From Ktedonobacterales bacterium (GTDB taxonomy: Bacteria > Chloroflexota > Ktedonobacteria > Ktedonobacterales > DATBGS01), in assembly GCA_036557285.1 (NCBI GenBank), contig DATBHW010000080.1, positions 1-35,983 of the forward strand: 35,983 nucleotides of DNA, read 5' to 3'. Position numbers and translations under genes: made by a program. Position 1 is the first letter of the stretch; each line of letters opens with the position of its first letter. This document shows, piece by piece, positions 1-1,741 of the stretch. A model generated the notes under the pieces. It searched no databases and was not told where the DNA came from. It worked only from the letters and a program-made list of their open reading frames with translations.

Positions 1-1207
1 CGGGGACCGGCTCGGCCAGCCGCCATGCCCCGGTGGTCGGGTCGAACTGGAGCGTCTGCTCGATGCCCAGCAGTTCGCGGCCATCGCCAATCAGCCTCGC
101 CTGCGGCTTGCCCCGCTCGCGGCGCAGCACCAGCACGTTATCCGCCACGCCGTTCAAGCCCTGCGTCGCGTTCACCTCGTCCAGCGCATCCTCGCGGCTC
201 TCCTTGCCCGTATGGTGAATCACCAGGATGCTCACGCTGCGGGCATGGGCCAGCGCCTGCACCTGCTCCAGCGAGGCATAATCCTCCCCATAGAGCGTCG
301 CGCTTCTGGCGTGGCCGCGAATCTTCGCCAGCGTATCCAGAATCAGCAGCCGCGCCTCGGGATGCCCCAGCAGCCAGACCTCCAGCAGCCGCAGCCCGCC
401 ATCGTCCAATCGCGGCCAGCGGGTCGTCACCTCCAGCCGACTCGGCGGCGGCTCCCCCTGCAAGAGTTGCTCTGTGCGGTTCCGCAGCCGCTTGGGGCTG
501 TCCTCCAGCGCCAGGTAGAGGACATCGCCCGCCTCCACCGGCGTCTTGCCCAGCGCCACGCCGCCGGAGGCCACCGCCAGCGCCAGCCCCAGCGCCAGCC
601 ACGACTTGCCCAGTTTGGGCTTGGCCGCCAGCAGCGTCAACCCTTCGGGCAGCAGGTCCGGCACGACCCACAGCGTCTTCGGGAACTCCTGGCGCAGCAG
701 GTCATCCACGCGCACCAGCGTCGGAGCCAGCGCGGCCAGCCGCGCACGCGCCTCTTCGGGCGACAGGTCCAGCGTCTCCTCCTCCGCCTGCGCCGCCAGC
801 GCCTCCACCGCCCGCACCGCCTCCCTGGCCGGTTCGTCGCTGTGATAGCCGATAGCGGCCAGGTCGCCAGCCACCTCCAGCACCTTGCGCCCCTGGGAGG
901 CTTGCCGGACCAGATTGGCATAATGCACCGCGTTGAGCGAGGTCGGCGCGGCATTGGGCAGGCTGTTCACGTAGACGAACCCGCCCGCTCGCTCAAGCTG
1001 GCCGGTGCGCTCCAGGCGCGTCGAAACCGTGACCACATCTACGGCCATGCCGTCGGCGTCCAACTGGCGCATCGTGGCAAAGATCGTCGCGTGCGCCTCG
1101 CGGTAGAAATCGTCGGGGGTGAGCGTCCTGACGGCGAACAGCGCCGACGGGTCAATCAGGATACAGCCCAGCAGCGCCTCTTCGGCATCCAGGGCGTGCG
1201 GGAACAT
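1..1207 (-). CDS. DnaB N-terminal domain / RepA-like AAA ATPase, replication helicase (partial)
   Basis: The frame is open from position 1207 to the window edge (about 402 codons), so the C-terminus is missing. Residues 1-100 resemble the DnaB helicase N-terminal domain (MFPHALDAEEALLGCILIDP, then DDFYREAHATIFATM). The second half is a RecA-fold ATPase of the RepA/AAA_25 type: Walker A AAKPKLGKSW, then YLALEDSPKRLRNR, Walker B RLLILDTL, and the sensor-like VIHHTGK. RepA-type hexamers unwind replicon origins, and DnaB-N/AAA_25 fusions are common in phages, plasmids and integrated elements. I chose ATG 1207 because GGAGGAG lies 8 nt upstream; an in-frame ATG cluster near 1226-1234 sits directly on its own purine run. 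It follows the zinc-ribbon gene on the same strand after about 100 bp and probably shares its LexA-like promoter. Whether it replicates a mobile element or serves the chromosome cannot be seen here. Confidence 0.85.
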   Translation of the reverse strand, partial: MFPHALDAEEALLGCILIDPSALFAVRTLTPDDFYREAHATIFATMRQLDADGMAVDVVTVSTRLERTGQLERAGGFVYVNSLPNAAPTSLNAVHYANLVRQASQGRKVLEVAGDLAAIGYHSDEPAREAVRAVEALAAQAEEETLDLSPEEARARLAALAPTLVRVDDLLRQEFPKTLWVVPDLLPEGLTLLAAKPKLGKSWLALGLALAVASGGVALGKTPVEAGDVLYLALEDSPKRLRNRTEQLLQGEPPPSRLEVTTRWPRLDDGGLRLLEVWLLGHPEARLLILDTLAKIRGHARSATLYGEDYASLEQVQALAHARSVSILVIHHTGKESREDALDEVNATQGLNGVADNVLVLRRERGKPQARLIGDGRELLGIEQTLQFDPTTGAWRLAEPVP

Positions 1208-1310
1208 CGGGGAGTCTCCTCCAGCCATCATCATCCTCCTCCACACAGACGCATCCCCCCGCCACCTGTCGGCAGGGGGAATGCGCCCGAACACAACCAC
1301 AACCGTCACA

Positions 1311-1526
1311 TCAGCACGCGCTGTAGCCGCAGGCATAGCACTTCTGGCAGCCTTCTTCATAGACCAGGGCGTTGCTCCCGCACTCTGGACACACGTAGCC
1401 CAGGGGCCGCATCGGCGGCTCAGCCTCGTCCTGCTCTGGCGGGCCGGATTCCACGTCGTCCTCGCCCTGCGCCAGCGCCTCGCGCACAGGCAGCCTGTCA
1501 TAATCGCCAATGGATTGCACACGCAT
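1311..1526 (-). CDS. Small zinc-ribbon protein resembling the C-terminal tail of B12-dependent ribonucleotide reductase (NrdJ)
   Basis: A 71-residue protein starting at ATG 1526, preceded by AAAGGAGAAG at good spacing. Residues 1-40 are acidic and probably disordered. The last 26 residues hold three cysteine pairs: CPECG, then GCQKC, then CGYSAC at the extreme C-terminus. This pattern, including EEGCQKCYACGYS, closely matches the tail of adenosylcobalamin-dependent ribonucleotide reductase, where the terminal cysteines pass electrons to the active site. No catalytic RNR domain is fused: the upstream in-frame stretch is low-complexity and unrelated. Family knowledge supports zinc binding; a role as a redox partner acting in trans is inference. 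It lies between a LexA-like promoter and the RepA/DnaB-like ATPase, which suggests DNA synthesis or repair. Alternatively it is a generic zinc ribbon. Confidence 0.75.
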   Translation of the reverse strand: MRVQSIGDYDRLPVREALAQGEDDVESGPPEQDEAEPPMRPLGYVCPECGSNALVYEEGCQKCYACGYSAC

Positions 1527-1658
1527 AGGGAAATCTTCTCCTTTCAAGAGGGGAACCAACCACCACCCCATCCACCCCCCTGCTCGCCAGCACGCAGCCG
1601 CAGCACTCAGAGGGGAAGCGAGCGCCCCTGGGGGCAAAGAATCAGACGCTCTTTTGCA

Positions 1659-1687
1659 AGAGTAGAACAAAAGTTCTACCTTGTCAA
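1659..1687 (-). promoter_or_regulatory. Promoter of the zinc-ribbon/RepA-like operon
   Basis: On the minus strand TTGACA (1682-1687) is followed after exactly 17 bases by TACTCT (1659-1664). The predicted transcript starts near 1652 and leaves a leader of about 125 nt before ATG 1526. The -35 hexamer is perfect; the -10 is moderate. Confidence 0.7.
1662..1679. promoter_or_regulatory. LexA/SOS-box-like operator
   Basis: The 18-bp perfect palindrome GTAGAACTTTTGTTCTAC (minus-strand reading) lies between the -35 and -10 hexamers. Its core GAAC-N4-GTTC is the consensus of LexA sites in Gram-positive bacteria (Cheo box). A repressor here would block RNA polymerase. The regulator itself is not in the window, so LexA is inferred from the motif only. 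Confidence 0.6.
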
Positions 1688-1741
1688 GCCCCTGACCGGA
1701 CGGCTCCATCACACAGGAGGTGTTGGCAAGCGAAGCATATT

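Follow-up and report, generated by a model that had tools for sequence, protein, structure and literature searches.

The promoter at positions 1659–1687 of the window carries an operator that is very probably the SOS box of the only LexA in this genome, controlling a predicted operon of a free-standing RNR electron-shuttle tail and a putative helicase. The window, which is the whole 35,983-base stretch analysed here, is a complete contig (C80), and the ATPase ORF of the operon runs off its position 1. The genome consists of 82 contigs (5.1 Mb), and the genome-wide counts given below come from pattern searches. The features are as follows.

1..1231, minus strand: ATPase with DnaB_N and AAA_25 domains, start at 1231 or 1207, 3' end cut by the contig end (Pfam PF00772, 1.2e-28; PF13481, 6e-30; RSF1010 RepA in PDB, 6.4e-7)
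1232..1310, minus strand: intergenic stretch with a strong hairpin and no T tract (−42.1 kcal/mol for 1225–1312, z −4.5)
1311..1526, minus strand: 71-aa free-standing class II RNR C-terminal zinc-ribbon tail (PHROG 23565, 5.8e-9; NCBIfam B12-dependent RNR C-terminus; RBS AAAGGAG)
1659..1664, minus strand: −10 hexamer TACTCT, weak, overlapping the operator (from the sequence, 17-bp spacing)
1662..1679, no strand assigned: predicted LexA operator GTAGAAC-N4-GTTCTAC (nine perfect genome copies against 0 in the reversed control; identical box upstream of lexA)
1682..1687, minus strand: −35 hexamer TTGACA (from the sequence)

The operator and its probable regulator

On the minus strand, positions 1687–1659 read TTGACA-AGGTAGAACTTTTGTTC-TACTCT, a sigma-70-type promoter with TTGACA at 1687–1682, a 17-bp spacer at 1681–1665 and TACTCT at 1664–1659. 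This confirms the original prediction, which had placed a GAAC-N4-GTTC palindrome between these two hexamers at this spacing. The full element, GTAGAAC-TTTT-GTTCTAC (1679–1662, minus strand), occupies the spacer and the beginning of the −10. It had been called a perfect palindrome, which holds for the two 7-bp arms, as they are perfect inverted repeats, but not for the centre, which is asymmetric (TTTT, or AAAA on the plus strand). TACTCT matches the −10 consensus at 3/6 positions and is thus weak, and a consensus promoter scan with a threshold of at least 4/6 in each hexamer did not list this promoter. The ATG at 1526 stands 133 nt downstream of the promoter, and no structured 5' leader was found (z +2.2).

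The bare core GAAC-N4-GTTC was rejected as evidence, as its 66 genomic occurrences are barely enriched over the 54 in the control. The extended form TAGAAC-N4-GTTCTA has nine perfect sites in the genome and 0 in the reversed control; among 66 cores, about 0.1 would be expected to carry both TA flanks by chance.

The genome encodes a single LexA, with HTH and S24 peptidase domains. The lexA promoter carries a perfect box, 104 bp before the gene start and 8 nt downstream of TTGACA-17-TATGCT, so that the organism's LexA and its own promoter, which the original prediction had proposed to look for, were both found. A one-mismatch box lies 8 nt after the TATGCT of dinB, the same distance from the −10 as in lexA, and recA has only a two-mismatch site, located over its −10. 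Upstream of lexA, many relatives in the order carry the same box (families f1 and f4) or, in family f2, the variant GAAT-N4-GTTCTA, and the position relative to the −10 is fixed in most cases; only poor matches were found upstream of lexA in a few genomes within and outside the order (G050, G055, G058 and G034). Perfect boxes in relatives also precede genes for a UmuD-like S24 peptidase, a Rad52/22 protein, a SNF2 helicase and an HHH_8 protein. Read from the sequences, this comparison amounts to phylogenetic footprinting of an apparently autoregulated LexA operator. As there is one LexA, with the box in its own promoter, and as the box is kept in relatives and found at dinB and repair-type targets, it appears to be the SOS box of this organism. 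LexA as the regulator is thus strongly supported, in agreement with the LexA-type control that had been predicted, and LexA repression is the best reading of the promoter at 1659–1687.

Boxes also recur upstream of two uncharacterised protein types that have no Pfam match (L226 530–1354, L222 1664–2494, L202 732–1499, L030 2852–3634; L223–L225). One type contains FNPxxHLLQI...LPVxWRLVWFR and has a one-mismatch box in the source genome as well (C22:64880); the other starts with MPVLEATDRLTPKSALRHRP.

The deviating promoter layout counts against the LexA reading, as do the two-mismatch recA site, the weak −10 and the poor lexA-upstream matches in some relatives. The lexA and dinB boxes follow shortly after the −10. 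By contrast, each of the eight perfect boxes other than that of lexA, including 1662–1679, is nested directly behind TTGACA, with the second half-site running into the −10. That they share this nesting is a point in favour, since no more than 0.09% of genome positions have a TTGACA so close by. One of these sites, on contig C23, is 94% identical to the site at 1662–1679 over 36 bp. The genes that follow nested boxes are a mixed set: an alpha/beta hydrolase, a transglycosylase with a C39 peptidase, a phage-tail-like protein and short ORFs. The perfect box at 9915 of L022 (G000:C24:21214) precedes a 672-aa protein that matches phage tail PHROG 1887 (1.3e-14). Both the deviating layout and the mixed gene set would suit another repressor that shares the palindrome, with only lexA and dinB left as LexA targets. 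However, all 12 defined bases of the nested boxes equal those of the lexA box, nested boxes are present in relatives too, and in G054 the lexA promoter itself has its one-mismatch box immediately after TTGACA. We therefore regard a second repressor as very unlikely. With LexA as the regulator, the nested geometry would let the repressor exclude RNA polymerase.

The RNR tail and the mosaic ATPase

Both genes had been named correctly in the original prediction, the first as a detached RNR tail and the second as a replication ATPase. The 71-aa ORF starts at ATG 1526 behind the RBS AAAGGAG. It matches PHROG 23565, a phage RNR (5.8e-9), as well as the C-termini of B12-dependent RNRs, which makes it a class II RNR tail. 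Its C-terminal sequence is CPECGSNALVYEEGCQKCYACGYSAC, ending in CPECG...EGCQKCYACGYSAC, and it keeps all six functional cysteines (C-x2-C-x10-C-x2-C-x2-C-x4-C). In NrdJ of S. nassauensis, where the spacing agrees within one residue, the corresponding cysteines form a zinc site and a redox pair, and turnover with TCEP requires all six (PMC5704485). Homology to RNR is limited to the last 31–40 residues of the ORF, and its N-terminal half is unlike NrdJ.

The chromosomal NrdJ (C7:54 kb) has its own intact tail, CPQCGCNTLVYEEGCKKCYSCGYSEC, so the 71-aa ORF is an extra copy. The chromosomal nrdJ gene (G000:C7, ~54–56 kb; L258) also appears to contain an intein, with an open frame of 1733 aa whose C-terminal part is followed by an intein-like junction, as read by eye. 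Among the 47 genomes of the order searched, the only tails that looked free-standing were the 71-aa ORF and one in G028, for which neither a box nor an AAA_25 gene was recognised in the stretch examined. This rarity, the complete tail of NrdJ itself and the 80% DNA identity over 70 bp between the ORF and the chromosomal nrdJ end all point to a non-functional remnant of an nrdJ 3' end, or to an ORF that is untranslated, in which case only the ATPase gene would matter. A separately expressed domain also failed to restore truncated NrdJ in vitro (PMC5704485). On the other side, the ORF has all six cysteines, a good RBS and its own start codon, and with its dissimilar N-terminal half it is more than a plain 3' fragment. 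On balance we consider a remnant possible, if somewhat improbable. The peptide may contribute to the dNTP supply by way of NrdJ; alternatively, it may be a relic.

Larger free-standing frames for the RNR cysteine-rich domain, of 209 and 254 aa, occur on haloarchaeal plasmids (L305 3012–3641 and L306 2889–3653), where they are absent from the plasmid gene table. We rejected these plasmids as a parallel to the gene pair, as no helicase gene is named beside the cysteine-rich domain ORFs.

The ATPase ORF follows the 71-aa ORF after 79 nt. Its residues 11–110 form a DnaB N-terminal domain and residues 170–345 an AAA_25 domain, which refines the predicted replication ATPase to a DnaB_N protein with a RepA-like AAA_25 half. 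DnaB_C is absent by Pfam scan, unlike in the DnaB relatives scanned, and matches to PDB sequences lead from its two halves to DnaB N domains and to RSF1010 RepA (1g8y, 6.4e-7). To judge from its domains, the ATPase is a mosaic of replication modules that are familiar from phages and plasmids, and its most likely role is that of a RepA/DnaB-like helicase in replication or restart. The order and spacing of the two genes suggest that they are co-transcribed, with the hairpin, which lacks a T tract, possibly modulating expression. This hairpin (1225–1312) is a possible attenuator or processing site; its strength counts against shared expression, as it could separate the expression of the two genes.

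Origin of the gene pair and proposed response

The combination of an RNR tail with a DnaB_N-AAA_25 ATPase was found in no other genome searched. RepA-like ATPases with an AAA_25 domain are typically encoded by phages and plasmids, the nearest AAA_25 homologues in the order have an N-terminal part that, judged by eye, looks like a primase, and, as described above, another perfect box precedes a phage-tail-like gene. These points suggest that the module could be the replication operon of an integrated plasmid-, phage- or ICE-like element, an option already raised in the original prediction, with the host's LexA serving the element as a switch. LexA would then still bind and the element would replicate upon host damage, serving the purpose of the element and not that of the host. 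However, no phage, plasmid or viral contig among those searched has both genes, and such a source of the pair was rejected. Neither an integrase nor an attachment site or boundary lies within reach of the operon on the contig, which ends at position 1. The sole tRNA of the 35,983-nt stretch is at 35.9 kb, and the next gene to the right looks, from its sequence, like a housekeeping gene for a typA/bipA-like GTPase. An element is a real possibility, although we place it a little below an even chance.

No overlap was found between contig C80 and other contig ends, and models of defence systems gave no match. A LexA box at the AAA_25 genes of relatives was also considered; 1 of 19 loci has a near match (L189), which was rejected as its −35 faces away from the gene. 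The region that separates the operon from the following gene contains, at 1742–2132, direct and inverted copies of a GC-rich 26-nt repeat (ACTTGTAGCGCCGCCATCTTGGCGGC), and a similar stretch adjoining them (1695–1740) is found at many further sites across the genome.

Under LexA control of a host operon, LexA in an undamaged cell would cover the −35 and −10 and the stretch that separates them, excluding RNA polymerase. Upon DNA damage LexA would cleave itself and be inactivated, the promoter would open, and a single transcript would give the small RNR-tail peptide and the mosaic helicase. Induction by damage would be expected from established LexA biology. The two products might even form a kit for damage-induced DNA synthesis, where the tail acts in trans on the complete class II RNR, raising or re-tuning dNTP supply, and the mosaic DnaB-N/RepA-type helicase is able to recruit primase; we consider this specific scenario unlikely. 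The free-standing tail under apparent LexA control would make in-trans action of the RNR cysteine-rich domain directly testable. The comparison also provides a LexA operator with its promoter geometry and target loci, supported across relatives, for an order for which we found no LexA-box study in the literature searched.

Comparison with known systems

The predicted operator resembles the Cheo box of Gram-positive bacteria (GAAC-N4-GTTC; PMC4234289, PMC2248561) in its core, in the autoregulated lexA, in dinB as a target and in the location of the operator over the promoter. It differs in its flanks, which are TA here (TAGAAC-N4-GTTCTA) and of the CGAAC...GTTCG type there. Unlike in Cheo-type SOS systems, the recA box is degenerate and most perfect sites precede non-canonical genes.

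The 71-aa ORF is reminiscent of NrdJb, the cysteine-rich domain of class II RNR, which in P. aeruginosa is a separate gene (PMC5704485). Both are encoded apart from the catalytic subunit, and both end in a zinc ribbon whose six cysteines follow one order, at spacings that agree within one residue (C-x2-C-x9-C-x2-C-x2-C-x5-C in PMC5704485). However, the ORF lacks the full cysteine-rich domain of ~200 residues, with only its last ~31 residues being homologous, it is not found beside a tail-less NrdJa, and the NrdJ of this genome has its own tail. A further difference is that the ORF shares an apparent LexA-type operon with the putative helicase gene.

The ATPase shares the DnaB N-terminal domain with the DnaB replicative helicase but has AAA_25 in place of DnaB_C. 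With the RSF1010 RepA type it shares the AAA_25 domain, including a Walker A motif (KPKLGKS), whereas RepA has no DnaB N domain. It also differs from the AAA_25 relatives in the order, which have the primase-like N-terminal region instead of DnaB_N.
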